From a virus: DNA of 56,257 bases. Positions 3,214-24,020 of the stretch are shown here, piece by piece (the stretch's first letter is position 1; every line of letters starts with the position of its first letter). Where the stretch lies: IMG/VR virus record IMGVR_UViG_3300027754_002235, positions 1 through 56,257 of that record; one strand, 5' to 3'. The notes beneath the pieces are model-generated. The model worked only from the letters and a program-made list of their open reading frames with translations. It searched no databases and had not been told where the DNA came from. The position numbers and the translations under genes are program-made.

Positions 3214-3236
3214 ATAGAAACTTAAATAGTTTCTAT
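3214..3236 (-). other. Short hairpin spanning the oxygenase stop codon
   Basis: ATAGAAAC and GTTTCTAT form a perfect eight-base-pair inverted repeat with a seven-base loop covering the TAA of the oxygenase gene. No T-run follows on either strand, so it is not a convincing terminator. It could stabilise or process mRNA between this gene and the next. Confidence 0.4.
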
Positions 3237-3788: not shown

Positions 3789-3789
3789 A

Positions 3790-8822: not shown

Positions 8823-8923
8823 TACTTATATATAAATGGATCACGTTTACGCAATTCTTTTAAACGTTTGCGATATCTTAAATACTCTCTTAATTTTCTA
8901 AACCAGCCAAATATATTCATCAT
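8822..8923 (-). CDS. 33-aa highly basic peptide
   Basis: The peptide starts MMNIFGWFRKLREYLRYRKR and ends LRKRDPFIYK. It is an amphipathic, strongly basic helix with aromatic residues at the N-terminus. A second ATG, one codon in, is an equally possible start. Its TAA overlaps the ATG of the carbamoyltransferase gene (TAATG), so it is translationally coupled to it. It begins just downstream of a late-promoter-like motif. The KRDPFIYK ending looks familiar to me from small phage proteins, but that is memory, not a search. Function is unknown. It could bind nucleic acid or membrane, or be a leader peptide controlling the operon. Confidence 0.6.
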   Translation of the reverse strand: MMNIFGWFRKLREYLRYRKRLKELRKRDPFIYK

Positions 8924-8933
8924 TTTAGTCCAT

Positions 8934-8941
8934 CATAAATA
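8934..8941 (+). promoter_or_regulatory. Late promoter for the plus-strand two-gene island
   Basis: CATAAATA on the plus strand lies 38 bases before the chosen GTG start of the radical SAM gene. The leader contains CAGGA at a good ribosome-binding distance. Confidence 0.55.
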
Positions 8942-8942
8942 T

Positions 8943-8950
8943 CTATTTAG
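8943..8950 (-). promoter_or_regulatory. Divergent late-promoter-like motif for the 1916-8923 unit
   Basis: The minus-strand sequence CTAAATAG lies 20 bases upstream of the 33-aa peptide start and is back-to-back with the plus-strand late promoter. The match to TATAAATA is imperfect (CTAAATA form). Confidence 0.4.
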
Positions 8951-8978
8951 TAAATCAACACATCACAGGAACTTAATA

Positions 8979-10037
8979 GTGGATAACGTAAATTATGAAT
9001 TTACCCCGGGCAAGCCAATACGCACATACGGGGCAAACGGAACATGGAGAGATTGGAGCACTGATGAATTAGTAGGTGCTAAATTAAATTATCTTCAGGG
9101 TTGGAAATGCGGAGCAGGAGTTGACAGTTTATTCATAGATATGGATGGTGGTGTTTGGACTGCTAGCTGTCGTGTAGGTGGTAAATTGGGAAGTGTATGG
9201 GATGATTTTATTGTACCCGAAGATTGGATTGATTGTACTAAAAACGTATGTAGTTGTGGTGCTGATTTATTCATACCCAAAACTAGTATCATTGAGTTTA
9301 AACCTATATTAAGAAAAGGTCAAGGATTACCTGCTCAACCTGAATTACGCAATGATAACTTAACAGAATATGTTGGTATGGAACGCACTCATGCTAGTAC
9401 ACAAAAACAGATATATTGGGAAATAGGTCGTAGATGTAACTATGACTGTAGCTATTGCTGGCCGTGGATTCATAATAACACAGATCCTCACAAGTCATTG
9501 GAAGAACTAATGAAGGCTACTCATTTAATTGAGAAAAAATTCACTAAAGGAGATAGTGTTAATTTCATTATCAGCGGAGGTGAGCCAACTGTTAACAAAG
9601 ATTTCTTAGATTGGTTGCGTTATCTAAATGCATGTGGACATCATGTTAGTCTACATAGTAATGGAAGTCGTTTACCTGAATATTACAAAGAAGTTATACA
9701 CTACGGAGACTTGAACTTAAGTGTTCATTATGAATTTTATGACCGTAAGAAGTTTGTTAAAGTTGTTGAAGCTATTGCTAAAGAAAAAGCAGAACACGGA
9801 GATTGCGGTCATTTAGAAGTTAAGTTTATGATGGCACCGCATAACCGTGACGAGACATTAAGCTTAGAAGCTGAATTAAAAACATTACCTCACTTTGAGG
9901 ATTATTGTACATGGGCTATTGTTCCTATCCGAGGAGATTTGAATAATAAGAATAGTGAACCTACATTTGGATCAGGCAGTGAAGTAATGGAAGGTTATAC
10001 TAAAGAAGATTATATATTGTTTGGCGATAGAAAATGA
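8979..10037 (+). CDS. Radical SAM enzyme with N-terminal five-Cys auxiliary domain
   Basis: I start this 352-aa enzyme at GTG, because CAGGA lies eight bases upstream and the reading frame before it lies partly upstream of the late promoter. Residues 44-93 carry Cys44, 64, 86, 91 and 93 (spacing X19, X21, X4, X1), which probably bind an auxiliary Fe-S cluster. The radical SAM core follows, with CNYDCSYC (Cys153, 157, 160, the CX3CX2C ligands of the 4Fe-4S cluster that cleaves S-adenosylmethionine) and GGEP at 200-203. The 17117-18061 protein has the same five-Cys domain, with identical spacing, at its C-terminus. The substrate is unknown. Auxiliary-cluster radical SAM enzymes often modify peptides or sugars. 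The gene overlaps the next by ATGA. Confidence 0.88.
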   Translation: MDNVNYEFTPGKPIRTYGANGTWRDWSTDELVGAKLNYLQGWKCGAGVDSLFIDMDGGVWTASCRVGGKLGSVWDDFIVPEDWIDCTKNVCSCGADLFIPKTSIIEFKPILRKGQGLPAQPELRNDNLTEYVGMERTHASTQKQIYWEIGRRCNYDCSYCWPWIHNNTDPHKSLEELMKATHLIEKKFTKGDSVNFIISGGEPTVNKDFLDWLRYLNACGHHVSLHSNGSRLPEYYKEVIHYGDLNLSVHYEFYDRKKFVKVVEAIAKEKAEHGDCGHLEVKFMMAPHNRDETLSLEAELKTLPHFEDYCTWAIVPIRGDLNNKNSEPTFGSGSEVMEGYTKEDYILFGDRK

Positions 10038-10771
10038 AAGTAGTATTAGTAACAGGCGGATTTGATCCATTACATTCAGGTCATATTGAGTATTTCAAGG
10101 CTGCTAAACAATTGGGATATCTTCTAATCGTAGGTGTTAATAGTGATGATTGGCTTGCACGTAAGAAAGGCCGAGCATTTATGCCCTTTAGTGAACGTAA
10201 GTTCATCATTGAAAATCTATATCAGGTACATAAAGTAATAGATTTTGATGATAGTGATAACACCGCAATAGATGCTATTAACAAAGTTAAACAACTATAT
10301 CCAAAAGCAAGTATTATTTTTGCTAACGGTGGGGATAGAACCAAAGACAATATACCTGAAATGGTGTTTGATGATGTTGAATTTGTATTTGGTGTGGGTG
10401 GGAAGAATAAAAAGAATAGTAGCAGTTGGATATTAGAAGAATGGAAAAGCCCCAAAACAGAAAGACCATGGGGATACTATCGTGTACTACATGAAGTTGC
10501 TGGTATGAAGGTTAAAGAATTAACAGTAGAACCCAATAAAAGTTTGAGTATGCAACGACATGAACAACGTGCGGAATATTGGATTGTGTCTGAGGGTGAG
10601 GCTACTATATATTGGGACTCTCATAGCAGTACAAAGTTAACCAAACATAAATCAGAAATAATACAGAAACAAGAATGGCATAGATTAGTCAATGAAACCT
10701 CTATGCCATTAAAGCTTGTTGAAATTCAGTACGGGACTAATTGCACTGAAGATGATATTGAAAGAAAATAA
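10034..10771 (+). CDS. Cytidylyltransferase fused to a ManC-type cupin
   Basis: This is a 245-aa fusion. Residues 1-~135 are a TagD/RfaE-type nucleotidyltransferase. FDPLHSGHIEYF carries the HxGH motif (residues 14-17) that binds the nucleotide, ERKFIIENL follows, and KKNSSSWIL replaces the usual ISTT-type motif. Residues ~145-245 are a cupin like the phosphomannose isomerase half of ManC/ManA type II. PWGYYRVL, SMQRHEQRAEYWIVSEGEA (metal His and Glu) and EWHRLVN precede a typical VEIQYGTNCTEDDIER ending. One chain could thus both isomerise or bind a sugar phosphate and activate it with CTP. I have not seen this pairing as standard. Coupled translation with the radical SAM gene (ATGA) suggests one pathway. 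Its stop directly abuts the stop of the convergent dehydrogenase gene. Confidence 0.88.
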   Translation: MKVVLVTGGFDPLHSGHIEYFKAAKQLGYLLIVGVNSDDWLARKKGRAFMPFSERKFIIENLYQVHKVIDFDDSDNTAIDAINKVKQLYPKASIIFANGGDRTKDNIPEMVFDDVEFVFGVGGKNKKNSSSWILEEWKSPKTERPWGYYRVLHEVAGMKVKELTVEPNKSLSMQRHEQRAEYWIVSEGEATIYWDSHSSTKLTKHKSEIIQKQEWHRLVNETSMPLKLVEIQYGTNCTEDDIERK

Positions 10772-12565
10772 TTAATCTTTTTTCAGTATAATTAATCTAC
10801 CGTCATGTAGAATTTTAGTCCAACCGTTATCTATCATTTTGTCAATTTCTTGCATTACATCTTTGCATTCATCACAATAATCATGTGCCGCAAGGTAACC
10901 ACCTTGTTTAATATGTTTACTCCAAAATTGTAGATTTATTGCAAGTTCGGGATTAAAGTGATTACCATCTTCAAAATATAAATCTAATTCAGTATCCCAT
11001 TGCTCTATACATTCAGGGCTACGTCCCTTTATAAATGTAACGTTAGGAAATCTTGATATGTTTTCTAAAACATGTTTTATTGAAACATCTTCTTTTAATA
11101 CTTTATCTACGATATATTCTTTAACATACGTATTATAAGGACTAACCCAATTAGAATCATTTTCACAATAATCAATGGTTGTTATTTTAGCATTAGGTAA
11201 TACTTTGGCAATCTTTGCAGTAGTAGCTCCTAAATATGTACCAATTTCAACTATATTCGCATTGTCAGGTAATTGTTTGACTATAGACAATAATGCATCT
11301 ATCTCTGGAATAGGTTCTAAATTGTCATAATTTATTTTATCTTTAATTCTAGTATTACCATAATGAACTATGTTATAATCAACCGATGTTCCTATAGTTC
11401 TCCATGGATCAACTATAATACTATTTTTGCCAAATATGAAATAAAATTCATCTTCTTTAACTTCTACACCGGTACCATAATATGTTACCGTAGGATTGTG
11501 TGCTAACAATATTACTGCGCTAGTATAGTCATGCACTATGTCGCCCGTTAACGGATCGGCATATCTTACATATACTCCTTCAGCTTCTACAAAATGGCCA
11601 ACTAATTCACTATAACTACCTATAGTATAAGATACATATGGCTTATATGCTCTACCGTGAATTATTACCGGTAAATTACGTTCTTTAGCTAACTTAACTA
11701 ATTTTAATGCTAAATTTTTAGCTTGTTGATCTCTACTATGCATTACCGCATGAAACAAATCGTAACCTAAATCTAATCGTCCTGCTAGATAACGTAGTGC
11801 AATGTTATCACGTGGATGACATGCACCAGCATCACCCATGCCTGCTGTTAAATATCTTGGTCCTGTAATTCGTTGTGTAGCGGCTTTTAATGCATCAGTT
11901 ACTACATCCACATTGATATTGCCGTTCTTTTCTGCAACATCTTGTATCATATTTACTAATCCAATCTTAGTACTAATAAATGTGTTGTAGAATATCTTAA
12001 TAGATTCAGCCTCATCCCATGTACCAACATTAATTCTAGGATCATTTGCCATTAATGGTTTGTAAAAATCTACTAATAACTTAGCATCGCCGGTTTCAGA
12101 GCCATCTTCAGTACCAATAATAATACATTCAGGATTAATCATATCCCACTTGACACTTCCCATAGCAATCAAATACGGATTATAAATGAATCTAGCATTA
12201 GTGATGCATGGTTCTAAATGGTGTCTTACTGTTCCCGGTAACACAGTTGAAATTAATACTACCAATTGTTCTTTATTAACGTATCTGTTTATTTCCGTTA
12301 ATACCTGTTGAACAATACTATAGTCAAAGTCTTTAGATGGTAGATCAGCGATAGGTTTACTGCCACCGTACATAGGGTCATGTGGTGTGGGTACTGCAAC
12401 AAAAATTAAATCTTTGCCAGTTACCGCCTCTTGTATTGTATCTAGTAATGTTATTTGAGCAGTAGGATCTTTAATTACATCATACCCAACTACATTATAA
12501 TGTTGGCTCATTACTTCAGCACAAGGTAAACCCAATTTACCGCAGCCAATCATTGCTACTTGCAT
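10772..12565 (-). CDS. UDP-glucose/GDP-mannose dehydrogenase fused to a methyltransferase
   Basis: This is a 597-aa fusion. Residues 1-~390 are a nucleotide-sugar 6-dehydrogenase, which oxidises a UDP- or GDP-sugar to the uronic acid with NAD+. It has GCGKLG near the N-terminus (NAD-binding), ISTVLPGTVRHH, a TKIGLVNM helix with Lys200, and GMGDAGACHPRDN with Cys249 in the catalytic position (usual form GxGGxCFPKD). Residues ~410-597 are a class I SAM-dependent methyltransferase. NIVEIGTYLGATTAKIAK is motif I, followed by ITTIDYCE, and the overall type is that of sugar O-methyltransferases. The fusion suggests an oxidised, O-methylated sugar. It is the last gene of the eleven-gene overlapping operon and overlaps its predecessor by ten bases. 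Confidence 0.9.
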   Translation of the reverse strand: MQVAMIGCGKLGLPCAEVMSQHYNVVGYDVIKDPTAQITLLDTIQEAVTGKDLIFVAVPTPHDPMYGGSKPIADLPSKDFDYSIVQQVLTEINRYVNKEQLVVLISTVLPGTVRHHLEPCITNARFIYNPYLIAMGSVKWDMINPECIIIGTEDGSETGDAKLLVDFYKPLMANDPRINVGTWDEAESIKIFYNTFISTKIGLVNMIQDVAEKNGNINVDVVTDALKAATQRITGPRYLTAGMGDAGACHPRDNIALRYLAGRLDLGYDLFHAVMHSRDQQAKNLALKLVKLAKERNLPVIIHGRAYKPYVSYTIGSYSELVGHFVEAEGVYVRYADPLTGDIVHDYTSAVILLAHNPTVTYYGTGVEVKEDEFYFIFGKNSIIVDPWRTIGTSVDYNIVHYGNTRIKDKINYDNLEPIPEIDALLSIVKQLPDNANIVEIGTYLGATTAKIAKVLPNAKITTIDYCENDSNWVSPYNTYVKEYIVDKVLKEDVSIKHVLENISRFPNVTFIKGRSPECIEQWDTELDLYFEDGNHFNPELAINLQFWSKHIKQGGYLAAHDYCDECKDVMQEIDKMIDNGWTKILHDGRLIILKKD

Positions 12566-13827
12566 ATTTTTTCCTTAATAAAATCTATTACATCTTGTTC
12601 TGGTCTACGTGACATTAACAAGTTATAATTATGTTCTAGTATATATTTGTGTTCTTGTATTAGGTTAAATAACTGTTCTGTAGTATATTTTTTAGATATA
12701 TCTTCTACTAATTTAACTATTTTTTCCATTCTTTTATGACAATCAAATTCTTCATCATAACTTTCATCCCATAATGTATTAAATGTCTTATAGCCTAAAC
12801 TACGTAAACGTTTTAATATATAAGGATTACCTATTACTATGAAGGGCATACCTAATGCCATTGGTTTAAATGTTTTCTCTGTTAAAAATAAGTTAGTTGA
12901 ATCTGAAGAAAATAATGTTTCTGTAGTAATGAAAATTAAGTTGTTAGCTGAAAAATTATATTCTATGTTATCCCAATGATTGCTTTTAAAATCAGTAGTA
13001 TCAATTACCCAAGGCAACGAATTTAACATCTCATTGAAATTATCATTATGTTTAATTTTATCCATAAACTCATTATTGTTATAACTAACAATTTCATTTA
13101 TAGTACTTACATCTTTTAAACTAGCATTAAAATCTGGTAATATTTTTTTATTATACATTTGATACATGAAATAATATCTAATTTCTCTAGGTATACGGTT
13201 TAAACATAAAAACTTCTTTAATAATGGATTGTTTTTATCTATATTATTTGATAATGATTTAGTAGACATACGCATTGCTGTCTCAAAATATTGCCAAGTA
13301 ATCATTGTAATATCATCATCTACTATATCATTACTCATATTTCCGGATAATAAAACTACATTACTAACATTTATAGAGGCCTTAATCAATTTATTTTTTA
13401 ATAAATTATAAAATTCATGTGAGTAATAAGCACTTTCATGTGCATCATTCAACACTAATAAACATTGTCCTGAATTTACAGCATTGATTAATCCTATAGG
13501 TAAATGCTCAAAAAAATTATAATTATTAGGTATGCCCATTATACCATTGCGGGCATGATGATTACGTACCGTGTTGCCTAAATATCTAAATGTTAATACA
13601 TATATAAAAGGTTCGGTTGTGCATAATGCTTCATGCATAGTAATCGTATTAGTTTTTATATTATTTTTTTCTAATACAGTTTGTAGCGGTGCGTGATAAT
13701 CATAATAACATTCTTCAAAAATGCCATTCATTGGATAAAATTTATTATCATATGAATTTATATGCCACCTCCATGTTGGTTGATTATCTGCTACTATACC
13801 ATCGTATGCAAAATTAATTGGCTTCAT
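12556..13827 (-). CDS. GT10/fucosyltransferase-like protein
   Basis: This is a 423-aa protein without a clear N-terminal assignment. The recognisable block is FLTEKTFKPMALGMPFIVIG, followed by NPYILKRLRSLGYKTF (residues about 315-350). It matches the sugar-nucleotide half of GT-B enzymes of the fucosyltransferase type, where a Thr-Glu-Lys-Ile/Phe motif contacts the donor and the G-x-P-[IV] strand follows. The N-terminal half has DAHESAYYSHEF and CLNRIPREIRYYFMYQMY segments resembling acceptor-binding domains of such proteins. It is probably a glycosyltransferase using a nucleotide sugar supplied by the adjacent dehydrogenase. The gene looks more A+T-rich than the tail genes. It overlaps both neighbours in the operon by 10-14 bases. 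Confidence 0.6.
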   Translation of the reverse strand: MKPINFAYDGIVADNQPTWRWHINSYDNKFYPMNGIFEECYYDYHAPLQTVLEKNNIKTNTITMHEALCTTEPFIYVLTFRYLGNTVRNHHARNGIMGIPNNYNFFEHLPIGLINAVNSGQCLLVLNDAHESAYYSHEFYNLLKNKLIKASINVSNVVLLSGNMSNDIVDDDITMITWQYFETAMRMSTKSLSNNIDKNNPLLKKFLCLNRIPREIRYYFMYQMYNKKILPDFNASLKDVSTINEIVSYNNNEFMDKIKHNDNFNEMLNSLPWVIDTTDFKSNHWDNIEYNFSANNLIFITTETLFSSDSTNLFLTEKTFKPMALGMPFIVIGNPYILKRLRSLGYKTFNTLWDESYDEEFDCHKRMEKIVKLVEDISKKYTTEQLFNLIQEHKYILEHNYNLLMSRRPEQDVIDFIKEKICK

Positions 13828-15031
13828 TTAATAAATTCCAATATTCAGGGAATGTTGTTGCAAACGATTCATTTCTATAATCGTCATGTAAGTTAGTTAC
13901 TTTGACAAATTCAGCTAAATCGTTAGGTGATCCTTCATTATCTAGCATAAATGCAACTACTTCTTTAATACCAAATATGTTTTGTACATATGATAATGAA
14001 TGTTCATCTAAACTTTCAATTTTATTTTTAATAATGTTTTTTATATTAGTTGGTAAATTTTTAATAGACATTTTATCCGGCCAATGCAATAGATTAAATT
14101 TAAGATTCAACTTTAAGTTATCCGCATTATACTTTATTAATTCATCAATATAAAATATATTGTACATACTTACTGTACAATATAAACTCATTGATACATT
14201 GGATTTAACATTAGCCTGATATCTTTTTATATTACTGATTACTTCATCCCATTTAGCAGGATGACGTTGATATTCAAATCTAGGGCCAATATCATCTAAA
14301 CTGATATTAAATTCAACCAATGCCATTTTATCCCAAACATCAGCTACAACGTCATCGTAGATAGTTCCATTAGTATTGTAAAATAATTCAATATCTAATT
14401 TTCTTATGTTTGGGTAGTTAGCTAGTATTTCCATAATTCTAGCATGTTCTGGCTGAAGTAGCGGTTCACCACCGTAGAATTCAATAATATGTAGATCCGG
14501 TATAAGTTCTTTAAACGTTTCAAAATTTATCTCATTTTTAATAAACTTACGTTCTGCATACTTTCCAAATATCTTAATAGTATGCTCATGAAATTCACCT
14601 GTATCCTGTGATTCTTTTAGCCAATTTGAACTACAATAAGGTCCGCAAATTCTGCATTTTAAATTACATAAACTACTAAACTTTAAATCCATTGTAATAA
14701 TTTTAGGATCTGCATACCTTATTGGATAATTAGCACCTTTATGGCGATGCCATCTAGCAACGTTATCTCTATGTTGCCGTAAACTAGTAATACCAGCAGA
14801 TTCTTCATCCCAACATGCTTTACATGCTTCGGGTTCAACTCCATTTAAAAAATCATTTCTAATTTTTTCCATTGCAGGTTGGTAAAATAACTCTTTAATA
14901 GTTTTATCGTGTAATGTTTCAACATCAATCTCAGTATCTACTTTGTTAAGATTATACTTGCAGCAGGGTGAGACCGAGCCACTAGGATTTAATACTATAT
15001 TTGAAAAGGGGAATAAACACTTACGAGACAT
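13814..15031 (-). CDS. N-terminal-twitch radical SAM enzyme
   Basis: This is a 405-aa enzyme. An N-terminal twitch-like domain carries Cys5, Cys23, Cys24, Cys70 and Cys73 (CLFPFSNIVLNPSG, PCC, ACKACWDEE), likely ligands of an auxiliary Fe-S cluster. The radical SAM core has CNLKCRICGPYC (Cys122, 126 and 129 as CX3CX2C, with Cys133 just beyond) and FYGGEPLLQPEH near residue 190. This is the order of the family often annotated in marine phages as twitch-domain radical SAM. The substrate is not known. Relatives with auxiliary clusters install cross-links, epimerise or oxidise residues in peptides, or rearrange sugars. It abuts a second enzyme of the same family (TAATG), so the pair may form a heterodimer or act in sequence. 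Confidence 0.9.
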   Translation of the reverse strand: MSRKCLFPFSNIVLNPSGSVSPCCKYNLNKVDTEIDVETLHDKTIKELFYQPAMEKIRNDFLNGVEPEACKACWDEESAGITSLRQHRDNVARWHRHKGANYPIRYADPKIITMDLKFSSLCNLKCRICGPYCSSNWLKESQDTGEFHEHTIKIFGKYAERKFIKNEINFETFKELIPDLHIIEFYGGEPLLQPEHARIMEILANYPNIRKLDIELFYNTNGTIYDDVVADVWDKMALVEFNISLDDIGPRFEYQRHPAKWDEVISNIKRYQANVKSNVSMSLYCTVSMYNIFYIDELIKYNADNLKLNLKFNLLHWPDKMSIKNLPTNIKNIIKNKIESLDEHSLSYVQNIFGIKEVVAFMLDNEGSPNDLAEFVKVTNLHDDYRNESFATTFPEYWNLLNEAN

Positions 15032-16419
15032 TATACTCCCTTACACATATTATAAAAATCAGTATATTCGGGAAACGTATCAGTAAACTTCATGTTTCTA
15101 CGTACATCAAAATCATCAAACCACATCCAAAATGTTTGTCTTTGATGGTTTCTATCCATAGTATTATTTCTTATACTTTCAGCTAATGTACTGATAAACT
15201 CCATGAACGCTATCCATTGACCGTACGGATCAGGTACTAGTGGCATAATGTCTTTCTTAGTATCCATGTACGCCACACATTCATCAATATACTTTGCAAA
15301 ATCAGGTGTCAATATAGATGGACTTTGATGGCTAGGAAACGTCACTACACTTTGTTTAATAGCAATTGGTCTACCATGCTTATGATATAAACTTTCAGCA
15401 TACATCACAAAATCTTTAATAGAGGATATACTTAACGCATTAATTGCCGGCATAAATCCAAATCCAAAATTCAAATCTTTATTACTCAACACCTTGTCAA
15501 CGTTACTAATGAATCTATCCCATTTAACCCCATTACGAATATACTCAGCTTTCTCTCCTACACTCTCCATACTGACAAGTATCTCAACATCAAATACTGC
15601 GCTAAGTTTAGGTAAATACGTCAAAAACTTATCTAAGTAATTCTTTGGGGTATTCATGTTAGTAACTATCCAAAAGCTTACTTTCTTTTCTGGTGCTATT
15701 GCTTTTTTACTTTCTAATAGTTTATCAACAAACGTGTAAAACTCAGGCATGATTAAAGGTTCGCCACCAATAATACCAATACGTGTGCAGTATTTTACCC
15801 CGACTGTATCAAACCACTCCCAAAACTTTTCATTAAAAATATCAGGTGCTTTAGGAAATTCTCGGTCATATTGTTCTTGTGATATACGTCCTAATTTAAT
15901 TTCTTCAGTTGCCCATTGTGTGCTGTAATGATGATTGCAGTACATACATTTCATATCACATGTGTTACCCAAACTAATCTCTAACATATAAGGATGGTTT
16001 GAACGTAATTTACTATCATTGATATCTTTAATATTTTCTAATGTTTTTAAAAAACTATCTTCAGTATATGGTTGATCGGGTATCTGCTTACGGACTGTCA
16101 TATGACGCCAATATGCTTCCGGTGTGTGCCTTGGGCTTGTCATTCCACTATCTTCAATGTTCCAGCATGTCTTACAATCAGATGTTTTTACACCTTGTAT
16201 TAAATCTAACCGACTTTGTAACATTTTAGGACTATTTAAAAATGCATCTATACCGTTAGTTTGTAGTTCTTCTTCAGTTACTTTGTTGCTAGGAGTTCTA
16301 CAGCAACTACGAAATTCTCCTCTATCCATATTAAAAATAGGATAGTTCCATTTCAAATCACATATAGTTTCTAATGGACTAACTTTATCTACCACAGTTG
16401 TTATTGGTATTGTTTTCAT
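15031..16419 (-). CDS. N-terminal-twitch radical SAM enzyme (paralogue)
   Basis: This 462-aa enzyme has the same order as the next gene downstream: N-terminal cysteines Cys20, Cys39-40, Cys82 and Cys85 (RSCCRTP, SDCKTCWNIEDSGMTSPR), then the core CDMKCMYC (Cys154, 158, 161) and IIGGEPLIMPEFY near residue 218. The two share the SAGITSLR/DSGMTSPR block after the twitch cysteines, so they are diverged paralogues. It is about 57 residues longer, mostly between the twitch and core domains and at the C-terminus. The ATG overlaps the TGA of the sulfotransferase-like gene upstream (ATGA), and its stop overlaps the start of the paralogue. Reaction and substrate are unknown. Confidence 0.9.
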   Translation of the reverse strand: MKTIPITTVVDKVSPLETICDLKWNYPIFNMDRGEFRSCCRTPSNKVTEEELQTNGIDAFLNSPKMLQSRLDLIQGVKTSDCKTCWNIEDSGMTSPRHTPEAYWRHMTVRKQIPDQPYTEDSFLKTLENIKDINDSKLRSNHPYMLEISLGNTCDMKCMYCNHHYSTQWATEEIKLGRISQEQYDREFPKAPDIFNEKFWEWFDTVGVKYCTRIGIIGGEPLIMPEFYTFVDKLLESKKAIAPEKKVSFWIVTNMNTPKNYLDKFLTYLPKLSAVFDVEILVSMESVGEKAEYIRNGVKWDRFISNVDKVLSNKDLNFGFGFMPAINALSISSIKDFVMYAESLYHKHGRPIAIKQSVVTFPSHQSPSILTPDFAKYIDECVAYMDTKKDIMPLVPDPYGQWIAFMEFISTLAESIRNNTMDRNHQRQTFWMWFDDFDVRRNMKFTDTFPEYTDFYNMCKGV

Positions 16420-17120
16420 GTTATTAACTTTTTTATAAATTCTTTTACTTTTTCTGGCTCTTTTAATATATCATAAGGATTATTGGGTAATTGCTTTTTA
16501 AGGCGAATCCCCGTAATAATTGGCCTTTGAAAGTATGTTGTTAAATCTTCTATACAATTCTCATATCTGATAATGTCAGCATCAATTTTATATTCTTCAA
16601 TAACTTTATTAAAATTTAAAATATCCTTATATAAAAATTCTACATTGGTTAAATTATAGGTAGATAGGTCTATCAGATCCTTATGTATTCCATCATCGGT
16701 TGACCATTTGTTAGTAGCCTGGGCAACTATCCAACTTAATAAATGATGTTCTATATTTTCTCTTTTCATAATCAAGAATTTAAACCCCAATTGCTTCAAC
16801 GTATCTAGTATTTCTTGTAATTGTAAGGATGACAAAATTCTATCTGTAAGGAATATTTTTAAAACTAATGATTGTTGTTGATTGCTATTTTTTAAAAGAT
16901 TAAGAACATAATCAATTTGTTCTTTGTATGAATTAAATTTTGGGAATATTGGTGACGTATATAAAAAGCTGTCTTTTTGAATTATGTTATACTTAGGATG
17001 ACAATAGGTAAAAGGTTCTGATAAATTTGTCCCCCCAACAATATTTCTAGTAATTACACTTGAAATATACTGACTACCGCATCTAGGTAATCCTAATAAA
17101 CAATATCTTTGAACACTCAT
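16416..17120 (-). CDS. Sulfotransferase-like protein
   Basis: This 234-aa protein opens MSVQRYCLLGLPRCGSQYIS. The G-L-P-R-x-G-[ST] loop at residues 10-17 is the 5'-phosphosulfate-binding loop of PAPS-dependent sulfotransferases. A strand-helix at residues about 114-130 (FKFLIMKRENIEHHLLSW) matches the 3'-phosphate-binding region, where Arg-x-x-x-Glu/Asp precedes the SxxLS/W helix. The protein is short for the family but both cofactor motifs are present. It probably sulfates a carbohydrate hydroxyl. The gene looks A+T-rich against the tail module. It overlaps radical SAM genes on both sides by four bases each. Confidence 0.75.
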   Translation of the reverse strand: MSVQRYCLLGLPRCGSQYISSVITRNIVGGTNLSEPFTYCHPKYNIIQKDSFLYTSPIFPKFNSYKEQIDYVLNLLKNSNQQQSLVLKIFLTDRILSSLQLQEILDTLKQLGFKFLIMKRENIEHHLLSWIVAQATNKWSTDDGIHKDLIDLSTYNLTNVEFLYKDILNFNKVIEEYKIDADIIRYENCIEDLTTYFQRPIITGIRLKKQLPNNPYDILKEPEKVKEFIKKLIT

Positions 17121-18061
17121 AATTCTTTTGTACTCATTATGTCAAAATTACAATGACACATTGTTTTATTACATAACACTGGCGTTTTAGGTACTTCAAA
17201 AGCTTCAAAAATGTTGCCAATCTTGCCACCTACTCTACACCAACCACGGTATATATCACCGCCCAAATCTACAATAATCTGCTCGACACCAGCATAACAT
17301 TTCCATCCACTCCAGTCATTTGTTTTTTGACTAATAAATCTATGTGCGCTAGAAACAACTTCTGTAGTATCTTCCTTAATCATTTTCATAGCACCACGGT
17401 AATAATCAAAAGATTTGGTGTACTTAATATGCTTTACAATCAATTCATGTTGTTTATCAAATATCTTCTTTTGAAAGTCATCATACTCATATAATGTGTC
17501 ACCAAAATCATGTATCAATGGTTGTAATGCCATACTGATATTACCAATACCTTTAACTTTATTAGCTACAGCATAACAGAAGTCAAACTTATCAGGACTC
17601 ATCATAATGTTCACATGGGTACGTACTTCATCATGTAATACTTTAACTACATTTACAAAGTGATCCGCATCAGCAAACTCGGGGTGAAAGCTTAAGCACA
17701 CGTGGTCAAAGTATTGTTTATTATCTTCCCACCAACGTAATGTTCTACTACCATTACTAATCAATCCAACTTTAGCACCTAACTCAGTACAATGCTTACA
17801 TATTTCTACAAAGTGTTTGTATAGTGTTACTTCTCCACCAGTTAATTCAAAGTAAACTTTACGTGGAGCAACTTGTTCTACTACCCGTGTGATGAATTCC
17901 TTAACTTTATCTAGTTCAGGCCATTTAATGTCACCTGAATGAAGATTTTCTGGACAATAACTACATTCAAAGTTACACGTATTGCCCATACACCAATTAA
18001 CGACAAACCATTCTTCGTGCGTGGGATTACTGTGTACTAACTTAATATAATTATGCTCCAT
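17117..18061 (-). CDS. Radical SAM enzyme with C-terminal five-Cys auxiliary domain
   Basis: I start this 314-aa enzyme at MEHNYIKLVH, whose ATG overlaps the TAA of the gene upstream. An ATG six bases earlier abuts the AAGGA ribosome binding site and is less likely. The core holds CNFECSYC (Cys29, 33, 36) and LTGGEVTLYKHF (GGE at 75-77). The C-terminal domain carries Cys255, 275, 297, 302 and 304 in GWKCYAGVE, CRVGGKIG and CNKTMCHC. Spacing and flanking residues match residues 44-93 of the plus-strand radical SAM enzyme, where this domain precedes the core. The substrate is unknown. Neighbours are a GT-A-like protein and a sulfotransferase-like protein, so a sugar or glycoprotein is plausible. 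Confidence 0.9.
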   Translation of the reverse strand: MEHNYIKLVHSNPTHEEWFVVNWCMGNTCNFECSYCPENLHSGDIKWPELDKVKEFITRVVEQVAPRKVYFELTGGEVTLYKHFVEICKHCTELGAKVGLISNGSRTLRWWEDNKQYFDHVCLSFHPEFADADHFVNVVKVLHDEVRTHVNIMMSPDKFDFCYAVANKVKGIGNISMALQPLIHDFGDTLYEYDDFQKKIFDKQHELIVKHIKYTKSFDYYRGAMKMIKEDTTEVVSSAHRFISQKTNDWSGWKCYAGVEQIIVDLGGDIYRGWCRVGGKIGNIFEAFEVPKTPVLCNKTMCHCNFDIMSTKEL

Positions 18062-19014
18062 TACCATCCTTCTATTTTTCTAATCACATCCATCTCTTTA
18101 ACTAACGGTCCGAGATTATATTTATCGGCACTATAATGACGTTTGAAGAACTTGCTTTGTCCTCCATCAAAGTGATGCATCGGTAATCTCAATTTGTCAT
18201 TTAATGCGGCACCTAGTAATGCTGATTCACGATCAGGATCTCTATGCGAATGTTCTTCCCATAGTACCTTATAGTTATCAAACCATTGTACGTTAGCAGG
18301 ATCCCACTCAGTAAGCATAGTCATATATGTACCAAGTCTTGCACCATATATAGCCCAATCTCCGTTATCTACATCACGTCCAATGTTGTGCCAAATAGTT
18401 AAGTTGTTTAAGTTACGACTTGCAACGGTTTCTTTTAGTGCATCAACTGTAGGTTTTGAACCACGGTCAAGAACCATTTTTACTCCTTCTCTGAATCCAG
18501 CTCGCCACGCTTGAAACGGAGTATAATTAGGATAAGTAGTAGAGTGGCAATCATACATTGTCCAGTATAAGTTATCTTTGCTGTCTAAACAAAAGTCAGC
18601 AATTCGTGAAACATCACCTTCAGTTTGATGCTCATGTGTTTTCATTTCACGCACATAAGTTTTTGTCCAAGAACTCATTCCACCATTACCATAGCGTAAT
18701 CCATTAATATTGTTAATAGCTTTCCAACGATATTGCGCTATCTTATAGTTAGGATCTTTATCAGTAAAGTCTAATTGTAGATTGAAGAAACTTTCTTCTG
18801 GCATATTATCGCCGTCAATTAAAATGAAACGTTCAGTATCACTCATTTGTCCTGCGGCTTTATGTGCGGCATCACTACCTTTGATACTATCAACACGTTT
18901 AGCCCAAGGTACCATGTTTTTAATCTTTAACCAAAATTCTTCTTTTTGTGGCTCATCATAGCTAAGATAGATGCAGTCTAAATCAGCTACATCAATGATA
19001 TCCTCAGAGTTCAT
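18061..19014 (-). CDS. GT-A-like glycosyltransferase
   Basis: In this 317-aa protein the N-terminal strand-helix DLDCIYLSYDEPQKEEFW resembles a nucleotide-sugar-binding fold. ERFILIDGDNMPEESFF at residues about 82-98 supplies a DxD-type acidic motif. FQAWRAGFREGVKM and LTIWHNIGRDVDNG follow in the C-terminal half. The same block order occurs in the last ~260 residues of the 1178-aa repeat protein, but only this copy keeps the acidic motif, so it is the better candidate for an active enzyme. Donor and acceptor are unknown. The gene overlaps its upstream neighbour by eleven bases and is coupled by TAATG to the radical SAM gene. Confidence 0.7.
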   Translation of the reverse strand: MNSEDIIDVADLDCIYLSYDEPQKEEFWLKIKNMVPWAKRVDSIKGSDAAHKAAGQMSDTERFILIDGDNMPEESFFNLQLDFTDKDPNYKIAQYRWKAINNINGLRYGNGGMSSWTKTYVREMKTHEHQTEGDVSRIADFCLDSKDNLYWTMYDCHSTTYPNYTPFQAWRAGFREGVKMVLDRGSKPTVDALKETVASRNLNNLTIWHNIGRDVDNGDWAIYGARLGTYMTMLTEWDPANVQWFDNYKVLWEEHSHRDPDRESALLGAALNDKLRLPMHHFDGGQSKFFKRHYSADKYNLGPLVKEMDVIRKIEGW

Positions 19015-19330
19015 ATGTTTTTAATTTCCATTTAGTTATATTATTATGGGAACTGTCTACTACAACACTTAAATCTTCGCTTGCACACATTGTACCTTCA
19101 TTGTCATGTACTAATTTAGATACAATTGATCCAGCAATAGCACCTGACACTTTACCGTCTATTACTTTAAGATCAGGACGACCTTGAGCAAATGTACTAG
19201 TATCAATTACAACGTAATTACCTTCTGGTTTTTCGCAAGTATAAAATAATACATTGCCTCGTTCATCATAATATAATCTGAACTCGGGTTTAATGATAGG
19301 AGGTGCTTCCCAAATTACAAATTCTTCCAT
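19004..19330 (-). CDS. Conserved-looking small protein, unknown function
   Basis: This is a 108-aa soluble protein starting MEEFVIWEAPPIIKPEFRLY. It has no signal peptide or membrane span. LYYDERGNVLFYTCEKPEGN and VIDGKVSGAIAGSIV suggest a compact beta-rich fold. It contains two cysteines, one in YTCEKP and one in TMCASEDL. I do not recognise the family. It sits inside the overlapping operon between two GT-A-type genes and overlaps both, so it is probably made with them and may be an accessory subunit. I would not assign an activity. Confidence 0.7.
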   Translation of the reverse strand: MEEFVIWEAPPIIKPEFRLYYDERGNVLFYTCEKPEGNYVVIDTSTFAQGRPDLKVIDGKVSGAIAGSIVSKLVHDNEGTMCASEDLSVVVDSSHNNITKWKLKTYEL

Positions 19331-20076
19331 TAATAACTTTCTAATATTTTATCACTAAACGATTTAATATGATAGTGGAATGGATACTGTTGTGCATAAG
19401 TGTTTACTCTAATCGTTTTGGGTAACACTTCGTATACTAATGTTTTAGTCCAATCTTCACTAGGAATACCATTAATATATTGTTTCATATGTATCATACT
19501 CATTTCAGTAAAGTTTGGTAATGTAGTTTTTTCTACTCCCACAATGTGACAAGCTATAGCATATACCCAATCAGTTGATACTTCTTCATTTGGATTACAT
19601 TTTAATATAGCTTTGTATTCTTCCCAATTATCAAAAATATCTCTTACTACTGTATAAAATAGTTTAGCTGTTTCTGACTTCTTAAAATAAGTTATGCTAT
19701 TGTATGTGTCAGGCAACATGTTCTCATCAATAAACTTTCTATATACCCTACAGTCAGATAACTCACCCTTAAAGTTTCTAATATTTGTTGAAACTACAAC
19801 ATCATTTATACTTAATATGTCCCACCAATGTTCAATACTACGTGGAATAATCATATCTGCTTCTAGTTTGATTGTTTCATCGTACGGGCTTGCTTCATAT
19901 ACTTGCCAATCGTTTACATAACCACTAAGATTAGCATGCGGTAACATATCACTAGTGATAATAGTTATATTACTATTTGGCATTACTTTTTTAATGCTTA
20001 GTTCTAATGCTTTAGCACAGTTAGTATAACTGACTTTTTCAGTATCTTGTGCCATAATTACAAAACCTCTAGTCAT
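19330..20076 (-). CDS. GT-A glycosyltransferase, GT8-like
   Basis: In this 248-aa protein the N-terminus MTRGFVIMAQDTEKVSYTNC is followed by SITIITS-like strands. The key block is YEASPYDETIKLEADMII at residues about 60-77, where Glu-Ala-Asp takes the place of the metal-binding DxD. YNSITYFKKSETAKLFY and STDWVYAIACHIVG are shared with the next gene (VVTFKKTNRSKQIF and RNDYALTLALRIANG). The two are diverged paralogues and could add different sugars or act as a pair. Both start and stop overlap neighbours (ATGA, TAATG). Donor and acceptor are unknown. Confidence 0.72.
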   Translation of the reverse strand: MTRGFVIMAQDTEKVSYTNCAKALELSIKKVMPNSNITIITSDMLPHANLSGYVNDWQVYEASPYDETIKLEADMIIPRSIEHWWDILSINDVVVSTNIRNFKGELSDCRVYRKFIDENMLPDTYNSITYFKKSETAKLFYTVVRDIFDNWEEYKAILKCNPNEEVSTDWVYAIACHIVGVEKTTLPNFTEMSMIHMKQYINGIPSEDWTKTLVYEVLPKTIRVNTYAQQYPFHYHIKSFSDKILESY

Positions 20077-20876
20077 GCTATTAGCTCCATAAAGTTTTCT
20101 TTATTCATAACGTGAAAATCCATATCTTTAATTGTTATATATTCTTTGCGTATCTTGCCGCGTTGCCAGTTGTCGTACATAACAGTATATTTGGTGTTGA
20201 ACTCATCTTCATTGTCTCTGTATATTGATGTATTTTTACCTACATGTACTAAGTTCCATGGAATAATATCACGTCCATTATCACTATGTCCGTTTGCTAT
20301 ACGTAGTGCAAGTGTTAATGCGTAATCATTACGGTATACCCCGCCAACAAAGCTGTGAATATCACAGTAATGGTCATAATTCTTTTGTACCATTTCTAAG
20401 CATTCAAATATTTGTTTAGAACGGTTAGTTTTTTTGAAGGTAACTACTGTAGCCCATAACGTATTAAAACTATATGAACTTAATACTTCTTGTGCCACTC
20501 CTGGTTGCATCAAATAACTAGTAGTATTATGGCAACAAAAATCATCATATATGGTAAACGTTCTTAATAGCTTACCTGAGTTAACCATGTAATCTGTATC
20601 TAATAGTATAGTTTCGTCATATGGGCTAAAATCATATGCTTGATATCTTCCCTTGTTAATCCATATGGTGTGTTCACGTATATTGTTTTTATCAGCATTA
20701 GTAATTATAACTTTATCAAATGTGTAGTTTTGAATTGACGGAATTGAATCCTCATCTGTAACTAATGTGACTGGAAGATTTAAAAAATAATTTATGCGTT
20801 TAGCAGTAGCTACTGCCATGTCATAGTAATTGAACTTGGGCGAGTTAAACGCAAATAATATTGCACCTTTGCTCAT
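20073..20876 (-). CDS. GT-A glycosyltransferase, GT8-like (paralogue)
   Basis: In this 267-aa protein FDFSPYDETILLDTDYMVNS carries a canonical Asp-Thr-Asp metal motif (residues about 82-100 region) at the same place where its neighbour has Glu-Ala-Asp. The N-terminus MSKGAILFAFNSPKFNYYDM resembles GT-A proteins that bind UDP-sugars. HNTTSYLMQPG and GRDIIPWNLVHVGKNT come later in the fold. It is the second gene of the operon led by the hairpin-controlled late promoter and overlaps the genes on both sides by ATGA. I infer transfer of a sugar to a virion protein or glycan. No acceptor is shown. Confidence 0.75.
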   Translation of the reverse strand: MSKGAILFAFNSPKFNYYDMAVATAKRINYFLNLPVTLVTDEDSIPSIQNYTFDKVIITNADKNNIREHTIWINKGRYQAYDFSPYDETILLDTDYMVNSGKLLRTFTIYDDFCCHNTTSYLMQPGVAQEVLSSYSFNTLWATVVTFKKTNRSKQIFECLEMVQKNYDHYCDIHSFVGGVYRNDYALTLALRIANGHSDNGRDIIPWNLVHVGKNTSIYRDNEDEFNTKYTVMYDNWQRGKIRKEYITIKDMDFHVMNKENFMELIA

Positions 20877-21178
20877 CGTTTAATCTCAATCTCTTTCCAT
20901 TCTTTGTACCATTCAAGCATGCCTTTTTGATATGTATCTTTTAATACCAATAGTAGTTGTTCTCGGTTAACTTGTACTGGATTATCAAAGTTATCAATAA
21001 GAATTACAAAGTTATTATCCATTGAAATTAAGAATGATATAAGTTCGGGGGTAGCCCTCCAAAGTCCCCCTTGTTCAGCAATAATAAATTTGCCATCGTA
21101 TTTGTCTTTAAGTTGCGCTTTTGCGCTATTGTGGTTGAAGCGAGCTTTAGCTTCGCTAATTAAGGTTTTGGTATCCAT
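20873..21178 (-). CDS. Small soluble protein, first gene of the decoration operon
   Basis: This 101-aa protein starts MDTKTLISEAKARFNHNSAK and is mostly helical, with a C-terminal amphipathic helix (YQKGMLEWYKEWKEIEIKR). It has no cysteine and no membrane span. KYDGKFIIAEQGGLWRATPE and LIDNFDNPVQVNREQL suggest a small alpha/beta domain. I recognise it only as a type of hypothetical protein of T4-like environmental phages, without a function. AGGAG lies six bases before the ATG. The start codon and next eight bases form one arm of an eleven-base-pair inverted repeat around the late promoter, so its translation appears regulated. All ten downstream junctions overlap, so its expression should set that of the operon. 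Confidence 0.75.
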   Translation of the reverse strand: MDTKTLISEAKARFNHNSAKAQLKDKYDGKFIIAEQGGLWRATPELISFLISMDNNFVILIDNFDNPVQVNREQLLLVLKDTYQKGMLEWYKEWKEIEIKR

Positions 21179-21212
21179 TAAACACTCCTAGAAGTATTTA
21201 GATGGATACCAA
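21168..21212 (-). promoter_or_regulatory. Late promoter and RBS inside an 11-bp inverted repeat masking the start codon
   Basis: On the minus strand TTGGTATCCAT (21212-21202) is perfectly complementary to ATGGATACCAA (21178-21168). The second arm begins with the start codon. The 23-base loop holds the late-promoter motif CTAAATACT (octamer 21201-21194) and the AGGAG ribosome binding site. Read-through RNA from the tail-fibre genes would bury the AUG in the stem. RNA started at the internal late promoter would lack the 5' arm and be translatable. This is the regulatory layout known from T4 genes e, soc and 49. Confidence 0.6.
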
Positions 21213-21226: not shown

Positions 21227-22177
21227 TTAACTGCCCGTTACTGTGCCAGATACAGATGGTGTTCCCCATGTATTAGCAATATATGTAACTTCAGGTGGAC
21301 GTATTGTTACTGTAGTAGCAGATCCGGTTGCTACAGTTAATCCGTTTGGAATCTCATCCCAAACTGTAGATATAGTAACCACATTGCCTACGTCACCGTT
21401 GCTACCTTGAGTACCATTTGTTTTAACAAAGATGTTAATGTTAGTTGATAAGTAACCAGAAGGCCCTGTACTAGCTGTTTGATAAAACGCATTTGCATTA
21501 CTAGTTGTCCAACTGTAATACCCGCTATTAGTAGATATATTAGCATTGGAGCCACCTCCGCCAATTTTAGTAACACCATTGTAACTTGTACTCGCAATTG
21601 TGGCAGCACCTGAAGTAGGTGAACTTAATACAACTGTTCCCACGTTACTTGCTAAGTTATTTAATAATAAATTGATGCCTGATCCAGCTGGATGAGCACA
21701 TGTAATAGCTAACTGTCCACCTGAGTTAAAGAAATAACGTGCGGCATCACCATTCGCAAAAGTAACTATATGAGTAAATGTTATTGCATTCAGCCAAGTA
21801 GGAGTATATGTAGCAGTATTTGCGCTTGTACCGCTTTGTGAGACGGCATTTAATCTATTTGTGTAAACAGTTTGTAAGTTAGTAACCACATTTGCATTAT
21901 ATGTAATTGTTGCTCCGGTGGCAGGTACTGCTACAGCAGTAATACTTGAACTCTGATGTGATGCCGAGCTTGCTGTTTTACTAACTAAATTAGCCCATTT
22001 AACAGCAGTTACTGTGTCTCCTACTGCTACGTTTGCTTCAGCAGTTTGTCCATATCCTGCGGCACCACTCCCAGTAGACCATACTGTGTTTAATGCATTA
22101 GCTGTTCCTCCAGGATTAGCACCTACTAACGCATTATAATCTGCGGCTTGAATTGTTCCGTATTGTGCGTAACTCAT
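21227..22177 (-). CDS. Tail-fibre-like virion protein
   Basis: This is a 316-aa protein rich in Ala, Gly, Ser, Thr and Asn, with no enzyme motif. It starts MSYAQYGTIQAADYNALVGA, an N-terminal pattern I associate with structural proteins of environmental phages. The low-complexity beta-rich body and Ser/Thr-rich C-terminus (TWGTPSVSGTVTGS) fit an exposed fibre or decoration protein. It follows another fibre-like gene by three bases, with AAAGGAT before the start. It is the last tail gene before the glycan-type operon, which makes it one candidate for modification. It could be a fibre tip or a capsid-decorating protein. Confidence 0.6.
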   Translation of the reverse strand: MSYAQYGTIQAADYNALVGANPGGTANALNTVWSTGSGAAGYGQTAEANVAVGDTVTAVKWANLVSKTASSASHQSSSITAVAVPATGATITYNANVVTNLQTVYTNRLNAVSQSGTSANTATYTPTWLNAITFTHIVTFANGDAARYFFNSGGQLAITCAHPAGSGINLLLNNLASNVGTVVLSSPTSGAATIASTSYNGVTKIGGGGSNANISTNSGYYSWTTSNANAFYQTASTGPSGYLSTNINIFVKTNGTQGSNGDVGNVVTISTVWDEIPNGLTVATGSATTVTIRPPEVTYIANTWGTPSVSGTVTGS

Positions 22178-22180: not shown

Positions 22181-23368
22181 TTATCCTTTAATTGAAACAA
22201 ATGCTTCTACTGTTCCAACACTATCAGTAGGTTTGTTAGCTAAAGCACGACCAATAACATTGAATGACGTAGCTTCACCTGCAGTGGCTGCACGTGCAAT
22301 GCCGTTACCAGCAGAAACTAATCTATCACCTTTACAAACTTTACCAGTTACTTTAACATGTATCCTGCCGCCTACTGCAACTGCAGGGTGAGTATCATCA
22401 TTGCCAGCTCCAGCATTCATTAAATAAGCCGCAGTATTTGATACTACACCAAATACATCTTCACTCAATTCATGTACTACTGCTGTGATTTCTGCATCAC
22501 CGCCTAATTCAACTACAGTACCGGCATCATATGGACTATCTGATTCAAAACGTTCTGCTAAGTCAGCATATGTTGCATTTAATCTTGCCCCTACACTTAA
22601 TGTCCAGATATCTGATATTGTTCCCCCGCCTGCAATTGCCGAAGTAGTTAAAATACTAGGATTTAATGCACCTGTATATGTTGGTAAAAATGCCGTTACG
22701 TTTGCATTTCCGTATGTTCCAACTGGATTAAATGGTGTTCCGTTCGCATAATAATAATTATCTGTTTTAATACCAGTAATAGCAACTAAGTTGCCATTAG
22801 TGATAATCATTGTATTGCCTGATGCACCGCCATTTGCTGTCCAAGTACCGGTTATTGTCCCTGTATTTGTGTTTGCTGCCCCGGCGTTAATATTTGCTGT
22901 ATTCAATGTAGTAACATTACCTATAGTAATGTTAGCGTTTGCAATTGTTGCATTAGCTGTAACAGTAGCTAAACGAACAGTGATAGTGTCTCCGACTAAT
23001 GCGTTTACTGCTGTAATATTATTTGCTTGTAGATTTCCAGTTACTGTTACTGAACCAAATGTTGTTGTGCCCGAGCCGCCGGATTGTGCTAATGTAATCC
23101 AAGAACTAGCGGTAGTAGTTCCGTCTGCAGGGCATACACACAATGTATTTGCATTTGTGTTATACCATAATTGGCCGCGCAATGGATTAGATGGAGGAGT
23201 TGTATCCGCAAAGTTTTCTACTGCGTGAACAAAGTTAGTATCAAGTGATTGACCGTAACCAGCATAATTCCTACCCGGTAAACCCAATGAGGTACTAGTT
23301 GTGTTTATAGTACCATCAGCAATGGTTGTTAGTACTGTTCCGTCGGATTTTACAATCGTATATGCCAT
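22181..23368 (-). CDS. Tail-fibre-like protein with peptidase-G2-type C-terminus
   Basis: In this 395-aa protein residues 1-~90 include a compact domain with FVHAVENFADTTPPSNPLRG and LWYNTNANTLCVC, common in phage fibre proteins that attach to the baseplate. Residues ~95-200 are Asn/Thr/Ala-rich repeats (TLNTANINAGAANTNTGTI) typical of a fibrous shaft. The C-terminal ~120 residues (YADLAERFESDSPYDAGTVV, FGVVSNTAAYLMNAGAG, GRIHVKVTGKVCKGDRL) resemble the terminal domain of fibres related to peptidase G2/IMC-type trimerisation domains. I infer a trimeric receptor-binding or side fibre. A late promoter and GGGAT ribosome binding site precede it. Confidence 0.75.
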   Translation of the reverse strand: MAYTIVKSDGTVLTTIADGTINTTSTSLGLPGRNYAGYGQSLDTNFVHAVENFADTTPPSNPLRGQLWYNTNANTLCVCPADGTTTASSWITLAQSGGSGTTTFGSVTVTGNLQANNITAVNALVGDTITVRLATVTANATIANANITIGNVTTLNTANINAGAANTNTGTITGTWTANGGASGNTMIITNGNLVAITGIKTDNYYYANGTPFNPVGTYGNANVTAFLPTYTGALNPSILTTSAIAGGGTISDIWTLSVGARLNATYADLAERFESDSPYDAGTVVELGGDAEITAVVHELSEDVFGVVSNTAAYLMNAGAGNDDTHPAVAVGGRIHVKVTGKVCKGDRLVSAGNGIARAATAGEATSFNVIGRALANKPTDSVGTVEAFVSIKG

Positions 23369-23399: not shown

Positions 23400-24020
23400 T
23401 TAAATTGTCACTAGATTAGTCAAACTTTGAATTCTGACTGTATAATCTATTTGAATTTGTCTATTCAAACTCTTTTGTACTGGGTGAAAAATCACATGAG
23501 TTAATAACCTTGTGAGAACATTCCCGTCACCATCTGTTCCATAATTTGCTAACAAACCCAATTCATCAAATACATAAGCTGAATCTGTTTGAGTACTATT
23601 GTCAAATGCATTCTGGCCAGCTGGCTCACCGTAGTCTAATAAACATTGTACTAAAATGTCAGTATACACACGACCAGTAGTATGCGAAACTGTCATTTTA
23701 TTACGTGTAGGGTCTAGGTTAAAAACACTAGTGTCATCTACAATTTTAGCATAGGTTTGATTATATAGGGCTGCATTTTGACCAGTTGTATTTGGGGGTA
23801 AATATGTAATAACACCTGTTTCATCTACGCTTGCACCACCATTCCCAAATGCCATTTGATAAATCTCACCGTAACCACGACTGCTTAATGTATCAGCAAT
23901 GGCCTCACTCATGTTTTCGTAGTTAATAGCATTATGCTTATCTACTAAAACTTCTCCGCTATTAGGGTCATAAATCTTTAAAAACCCCTCTACTTTATAT
24001 GATAGTGTTATTACTGACAT
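23400..24020 (-). CDS. Virion-associated protein, unknown function
   Basis: This 206-aa beta-rich protein has no signal peptide or membrane span. It starts MSVITLSYKVEGFLKIYDPN and includes GEIYQMAFGNGGASVDETG and a C-terminal strand LNRQIQIDYTVRIQSLTNLV. The segment FLKIYDPNSGEVLVDKHNAI near the N-terminus is repeated in the tiny upstream gene (HIKITDPNTNEVLVQTRGDN), so the two share a small domain. It is coupled by TAATG to that gene and lies between the giant baseplate gene and the fibre genes. That position suggests a tail or fibre-attachment role. No T4 equivalent is clear. Confidence 0.65.
   Translation of the reverse strand: MSVITLSYKVEGFLKIYDPNSGEVLVDKHNAINYENMSEAIADTLSSRGYGEIYQMAFGNGGASVDETGVITYLPPNTTGQNAALYNQTYAKIVDDTSVFNLDPTRNKMTVSHTTGRVYTDILVQCLLDYGEPAGQNAFDNSTQTDSAYVFDELGLLANYGTDGDGNVLTRLLTHVIFHPVQKSLNRQIQIDYTVRIQSLTNLVTI

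Follow-up and report, generated by a model that had tools for sequence, protein, structure and literature searches.

Several described viruses carry sets of genes for building or altering sugars. In the eukaryotic virus PBCV-1, virus-encoded and mostly soluble glycosyltransferases (A064R and others) act with a methyltransferase to build an atypical glycan that is attached to a virion protein; they are expressed early and, in the available text of that report, include no radical S-adenosylmethionine (radical SAM) enzymes (PMC9614988). Pelagimyophages possess a host recognition cluster that has been read as modifying the host O-chain (PMC7029224), and in both this cluster and the lipopolysaccharide (LPS)-type clusters of cyanomyophages, tail fibres share one variable region with sugar genes (GT8, UDP-glucose dehydrogenase, rfaE-like). 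Polysaccharide and metabolite clusters are likewise described for jumbo cyanophages (PMC7824862). In this study, we analyzed a 56-kb virus record (IMGVR_UViG_3300027754_002235; 56,257 nt, hereafter the window), in which eleven minus-strand open reading frames, A01 to A11, run without gaps from position 10772 to 21178. Sugar genes beside tail fibres, the arrangement by which host recognition clusters are identified, are also present in the window. However, the phage belongs near RaK2 and Atu_ph07 on sequence similarity, and its core genes are conserved and ordered, not random. Comparison with relatives revealed that the eleven genes comprise two units, a conserved fibre-linked core (A01–A06) and an exchangeable tailoring cassette (A07–A11). 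The best reading, which we put forward tentatively, is that they form a late-expressed, soluble line that would glycosylate and tailor the phage's own fibre. By analogy, the operon would work most like the capsid glycosylation of PBCV-1, although we do not class it with that system since the acceptor here, a tail fibre, is one that we infer.

A conserved operon of two units

All ten junctions between the eleven genes overlap, as had been stated in a preliminary description of the window made from its letters alone; in order of transcription, the overlaps are 4, 4, 1, 11, 7, 4, 4, 1, 14 and 10 nt. Of the overlap classes given there, that of 10–14 nt contains one case of 7 nt. Only 3 of the 16 remaining same-strand junctions of the window overlap, versus 10 of 10 in the operon (Fisher p = 5e-5). 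The overlaps are kept in relatives for A01/A02 (40/40), A02/A03 (41/41), A05/A06 (31/32) and A08/A09 (26/27), whereas fib1 and A01 overlap in 0/40 and are instead separated by a gap, most often of 36–48 nt. These results confirm that the operon is real and conserved.

Gene content was counted in 57 eligible loci, each having at least 6.5 kb before A06. The fibre-like gene fib1 was found in 39 loci and the full series fib1-A01-A02-A03-A05-A06 in 37, so that the check proposed in the preliminary description, whether the genes accompany fibre genes in environmental phages, had a positive outcome for A01–A06. A01–A04 were found solely together with fib1, and the 18 loci lacking fib1 all lacked A01–A05 as separate genes. 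In addition, the phages Atu_ph07 and Phosso have kept s_206 and fib2 while fib1 is undetectable in them, and A01–A05 are likewise missing. Downstream of A06, gene order varies freely, with rSAM4 found in 20 loci, A07 in 16 and A08 in 8. Most relatives of the window have other genes in place of A09–A11, namely a more distant A09, two additional radical SAM genes, a gene recognized by eye as SGNH-like and one for a B12-radical SAM protein. Because the order after A06 varies while the series from fib1 to A06 recurs, we distinguish a core from an exchangeable cassette, and the earlier idea of a single fixed eleven-gene pathway was dropped.

Table 1. Positions of the operon genes, promoter elements and surrounding features in the window
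Feature	Description	Position	Strand	Remark
TPR protein	Tetratricopeptide repeat (TPR) protein; GT9 half unconfirmed	1916..3181	-	
Oxygenase	2-Oxoglutarate (2OG)-Fe(II) oxygenase	3222..3842	-	
1178-aa protein	Repeats of ~60 aa (FDFSWHPD...PPYIYQFG) and A05-like C-terminus	3790..7326	-	
Carbamoyltransferase	NodU/TobZ-type	7335..8822	-	
rSAM4	Radical SAM, Cys-rich domain N-terminal	8868..10037	+	
CTP_transf-like fusion	Cytidylyltransferase-like and mannose-6-phosphate isomerase-type cupin	10034..10771	+	
A11	597 aa, UDP-sugar dehydrogenase fused to Methyltransf_24	10772..12565	-	
A10	423 aa, GT10-like C-terminus by eye only	12556..13827	-	
A09	405 aa, N-terminal-twitch radical SAM (NF033640), variable cassette	13814..15031	-	327 bits
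A08	462 aa, N-terminal-twitch radical SAM (NF033640)	15031..16419	-	270 bits
A07	234 aa, sulfotransferase-like (GLPRxGSQ loop), optional	16416..17120	-	
A06	316 aa, radical SAM with C-terminal SPASM-like Cys domain	17117..18067	-	
A05	317 aa, weakly GT-A-like, conserved DGD	18061..19014	-	
A04	108 aa, unassigned, mostly present in core	19004..19330	-	
A03	248 aa, A02 homologue, motif SPYDETIKLEADM	19330..20076	-	
A02	267 aa, predicted GT-A fold, glycogenin/GT8-like, motif SPYDETILLDTDY	20073..20876	-	
A01	101 aa, unassigned, conserved in core	20873..21178	-	
AGGAG	Ribosome-binding site of A01	21185..21189	-	
TCTAAATA	Late-promoter-like motif	21195..21202	-	24 nt before A01
fib1	316 aa, fibre-like	21227..22177	-	Strictly linked to A01–A04
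fib2	395 aa, fibre-like, behind GATAAATA	22181..23368	-	Homologue in Atu_ph07 and Phosso
s_206	Conserved virion-region protein	23400..24020	-	Homologue in Atu_ph07 and Phosso
5965-aa protein	Positional counterpart of the virion structural protein of 4.4–4.6 thousand residues in Atu_ph07/Phosso	24188..42085	-	

Enzymes of the core, the cassette and the flanks

The predicted fold of A02 (AlphaFold mean local confidence, pLDDT, 84) places it among the GT-A glycosyltransferases. Its best Foldseek match was glycogenin-2 (E 2.5e-7), template modelling (TM) scores for glycogenins were 0.44–0.49, GlyE was also high, and the protein carries a DXD metal motif (LLDTDY). Glycogenin and GlyE are protein-linked glycosyltransferases. 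In A03, a homologue of A02, the DXD position holds EAD (LEADM). The carbohydrate-binding domain CBM_5_12 scored in one member of the A02/A03 alignment, most likely L011:2353-4002, an A02 homologue with an insert. The model of A05 (pLDDT 78) gave a best structural match at E 2.5e-4 with low TM scores, about 0.4 at most, and its weak matches include SunS, ThuS and the PBCV-1 capsid glycosyltransferase (A064R domain 1). Therefore, of the three GT-A proteins first described, A02 stands by its predicted fold and A03 as its homologue, and A05 is weakly GT-A-like.

The three radical SAM enzymes claimed earlier were all recovered by Pfam, and CxxxCxxC is intact in A06, A08 and A09. A06 is the most conserved enzyme of the operon, and in some relatives it is fused to A05 behind another fibre gene; upstream of one such fusion, a protein with a Hint (intein-like) domain (L017:2026-3135) lies between fibre-like genes. 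A08 and A09 both exceed the curated cut-off of 170 bits for NF033640 (N_Twi_rSAM), a family whose function carries no name, and their own family has C20, C39, C40, C82, C85, C154, C158 and C161 invariant in 21 sequences. No relative of either was found among solved structures.

The identity of A11 as a dehydrogenase-methyltransferase fusion agreed with Pfam, and its catalytic motif can be read from the sequence as GACHPRD; the two halves are separate genes in the relative L002. The sulfotransferase label given to A07 rests on members of its family, some of which match Stf0 or Sulfotransfer_3, whereas no Pfam sulfotransferase domain matched the window copy. In that family, P12, R13, G15 and S16 of the loop PRxGS, which would bind 3'-phosphoadenosine-5'-phosphosulfate, are invariant. 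The assignment of A10 as GT10-like was rejected as unproven, there being no support from Pfam, PHROG, NCBIfam or the PDB.

Among the flanking genes, the carbamoyltransferase, oxygenase, TPR protein, fourth radical SAM enzyme and CTP_transf-like fusion were all recognized as first described, except that no GT9 half was confirmed in the TPR protein. rSAM4 and A06 are homologous with swapped domain order, the C-terminal Cys-rich domain of A06 being N-terminal in rSAM4. The 1178-aa repeat protein is homologous to A05 at its C-terminal end and had no tblastn match among phages. Its alignment with L002 falls in a shifted repeat register, which suggests that repeat numbers differ. Glycosyltransferases, carbamoyltransferases, oxygenases and radical SAM enzymes are also known from pathways that hypermodify the bases of DNA or RNA. 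However, no thymidylate-synthase-like or base-modifying gene was recognized in the block, which sits behind fibre genes under a late-type motif, and we regard this explanation as highly improbable.

The set of genes could also make a small molecule or nucleotide, such as a metabolite derived from a sugar or an amino acid. The jumbo cyanophage S-SSM6a shares with the window a multi-gene tailoring set with carbamoyltransferases, and its ten-gene carbamoyltransferase/halogenase/hydroxylase cluster was read as metabolite synthesis; the term radical SAM is absent from that paper and, in the available text, fibre linkage is not mentioned (PMC7824862). A halogenase-like gene (flavin-dependent, by eye) lies upstream of a sulfotransferase-like gene (A07) and A06 at L106:6271-7434. 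Against such a product, no export gene was seen in the operon and the GT-A core is strictly tied to the fibre, which makes this explanation improbable.

Likely late control and the probable acceptor

The gap between fib1 and A01 contains the motif TCTAAATA followed by AGGAG. TCTAAATA is a one-base variant of NATAAATA, the late motif published for T4-like cyanophages (PMC2984593), and differs by one base from the GATAAATA or CATAAATA found at -24 to -31 of the window late genes gp6, gp25, fib2 and one for a virion protein. Late control of the operon is likely because it has this late-type motif, which is conserved as TCTAAATACT in most relatives, and because a gene for the late sigma factor gp55 is present. 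The single late promoter of the preliminary description thus holds as regards the motif before A01, but one subclade has another element in its place and a second GATAAATA occurs inside A05 (18119-18126, minus strand), 59 nt before A06, possibly as an internal late promoter.

A phage that builds a lipid-linked glycan requires an initiating transferase and usually a flippase. We searched for these in 13 phage records, three of which are 345, 349 and 524 kb long, and found the initiating phosphoglycosyl transferases PF02397 and PF00953 in 0/13 and the Wzx-type flippase PF01943 in 0/13 of these records, which may be fragments. The same profiles matched 9 to 13 of 14 control (bacterial) genomes, and radical SAM domains were found in 13/13 of the phage records, with 2 to 18 matches each. 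In addition, a simple hydropathy scan gave no membrane segment in the operon proteins. An autonomous lipid-linked O-antigen or capsule pathway is therefore unlikely, as far as gene content can tell. The lack of both lipid-carrier genes and membrane segments points towards a soluble acceptor, for which the neighbouring fibre is the simplest candidate, while still allowing for the capping of host precursors. Thus, of the virion or host-surface decoration first suggested, the former gained from the co-occurrence of core and fibre, and for the latter autonomous O-antigen synthesis became less likely.

Capping is part of a wider alternative, in which the enzymes would cap or alter the LPS or capsule of the host and so stop superinfection or the loss of progeny to debris. 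The glycosyltransferase, UDP-sugar dehydrogenase, rfaE-like and radical SAM genes of pelagimyophages have been interpreted in this way (PMC7029224), as have the LPS clusters of P-SSM2 (PMC2984593) and of jumbo cyanophages (PMC7824862). However, the strict tie of A01–A04 to one fibre gene and the late-type motif, as well as the missing carrier genes and membrane segments, count against it, and we consider modification of a host glycan unlikely.

We favour decoration of the fibre for several reasons. A01–A06 follow fib1, A01–A04 occur only with it, and the overlaps are conserved; the operon has a late-type motif in a phage with gp55; A02 resembles the protein-linked glycogenin and GlyE, and a homologue of A02 has a carbohydrate-binding domain. 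This reading is also favoured because the A05-A06 fusion stands behind another fibre gene, because lipid-carrier genes and membrane segments are missing, and because radical SAM genes of cultured relatives surround a protein with a repetitive tail at the edge of a virion cluster. Other observations weigh against it. The loci include related phages, and 39/0 with fib1 versus 0/18 without it are not independent counts. A06 occurs without fib1 in 18 of the 57 loci and therefore is not fibre-specific. Inspection of fib1, A01 and A04 gave no substrate motif, and one subclade has a sigma70-like TAGTATAAT behind a hairpin in place of the late motif. Furthermore, the region behind the fibres is a known variable site whose sugar genes have been read as modifiers of the host O-chain (PMC7029224).

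If the fibre is the acceptor, transcription directed by gp55 from TCTAAATA would give one message with eleven translationally coupled frames. A02, A03 and probably A05 would then attach sugars to fib1 (or fib2), and A06 would carry out a radical SAM step coupled to A05. Possibly at a later stage, the cassette would modify the sugar or the acceptor by sulfation (A07), radical SAM steps (A08 and A09), and uronic acid supply and methylation (A11), and the flanking genes may add carbamoylation, hydroxylation and a second nucleotide sugar. Such a line could serve to vary the surface of the fibre, be it for binding receptors, for stability or to evade the defences of the host.

The phage and its cultured relatives

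The nearest matches to gp6 of the window were those of Phosso, Atu_ph07 and RaK2-like jumbo phages (33–35% identity), and in the window, as in Phosso and Atu_ph07, the genes for gp25, gp6, the giant protein, s_206 and fib2 follow one another in that order. By these sequence similarities, the phage is placed near the RaK2/Atu_ph07 jumbo myophages, rather than with ordinary T4-like phages, among which the preliminary description had proposed to look for relatives, or with the pelagi- and cyanomyophages. A06 is present in 74 viral records, the largest of 524 kb, and in one 349-kb record it has 97% identity to the window A06. By megablast the whole block matched no phage record, and by tblastn A04, A05, A06 and A10 had no homologue in 50,697 phage records, in which A08 and A09 had only matches of 22–23% identity, in two Vibrio phages. 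A cellular origin of A06 was rejected, as only two metagenome-assembled bacterial contigs matched, one of which has fibre genes and is probably phage. Two relatives have a permuted tmRNA of betaproteobacterial type (L061:6948-7353, minus strand, tag ANDELYSLAA; L065:16544-16955, plus strand, tag ANDEQFALAA), which gives a hint of the host group. One of them has a tRNA with anticodon CUA (L065:19374-19446; called tRNA-Pyl), possibly an amber suppressor. A single 275-kb phage record (G015, the record of L142) has 18 radical SAM matches.

At the corresponding locus of the cultured phages Atu_ph07 and Phosso, the s_206-fib2 region is likewise followed directly by several radical SAM genes. However, these belong to other radical SAM families, there is no glycosyltransferase core, and a candidate substrate tail is visible: the genes surround a protein ending in CHSSCHASCHNSRSRR or CHTSCHASCHSSRSRR (L074 and L076, Atu_ph07 gp165–gp171; L073 and L075, Phosso). 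That A01–A06 are the same module as the genes at this position was rejected, since hidden Markov model and profile-profile comparisons gave only weak, generic radical SAM matches. Most virion proteins of Atu_ph07 are encoded in clusters, one of them CDS 170–215, according to the virion-proteome report (PMC6102473), and CDS 170, at the edge of that cluster, is the CHxS-tailed protein. Pattern scans found C-termini of the form CHxSCHxSCHxSRxRR at 112 viral loci (further ones among L152–L304), in proteins of about 90–310 aa, including in records of 222,888 and 223,932 bp (L163 and L199). A radical SAM gene of phrog_1802 type lies directly upstream of the CHxS protein in 58 of 83 cases, and one order of four radical SAM genes recurs in 10 of the 14 CHxS loci that are long enough. 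By its sequence features this locus would appear to be a phage module for peptide modification by radical SAM enzymes that is so far undescribed; no paper on it was found in the literature searched. The phages FLC6 and RSF1 share cupin, Fe-S oxidoreductase, radical SAM and 2OG-oxygenase genes (PMC8066314).

Radical SAM enzymes at this locus can therefore adjoin a likely protein substrate, although this does not count as evidence for those of the window. Potentially, residues of a virion protein, rather than sugars, are altered first by a peptide-modifying radical SAM line and then glycosylated. Besides the CHxS locus, the solved relatives of A06 at E<1e-3 are consistent with such a line, as they consist only of the peptide epimerase YydG, the sactisynthase SkfB and an archaeal lipid synthase. 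However, the match spans only the radical SAM core, A08 and A09 lack solved relatives, and the (CHxS)n RxRR tail is absent from the 13 window-type records searched, in which two pattern matches were rejected as chance. We therefore judge this line to be doubtful at best.

Our preferred reading, decoration of the phage's own fibre, has a broader form, which we offer as speculative and rather unlikely: that jumbo phages hold a dedicated, fibre-locked decoration pathway, its radical SAM enzymes and its glycosyltransferases jointly rebuilding a tail fibre protein, with an exchangeable cassette giving each phage its specific fibre chemistry. Part of this question is accessible now, as a comparable locus exists in the cultured phages Atu_ph07 and Phosso. 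If enzymes encoded by giant phages do decorate their fibres, this would make a large pool of unassigned radical SAM and glycosyltransferase chemistry testable and would explain why so many jumbo phages spend 10–20 kb on such enzymes. It would also mean that receptor binding and host recognition by these phages are unreadable from the fibre sequence alone.

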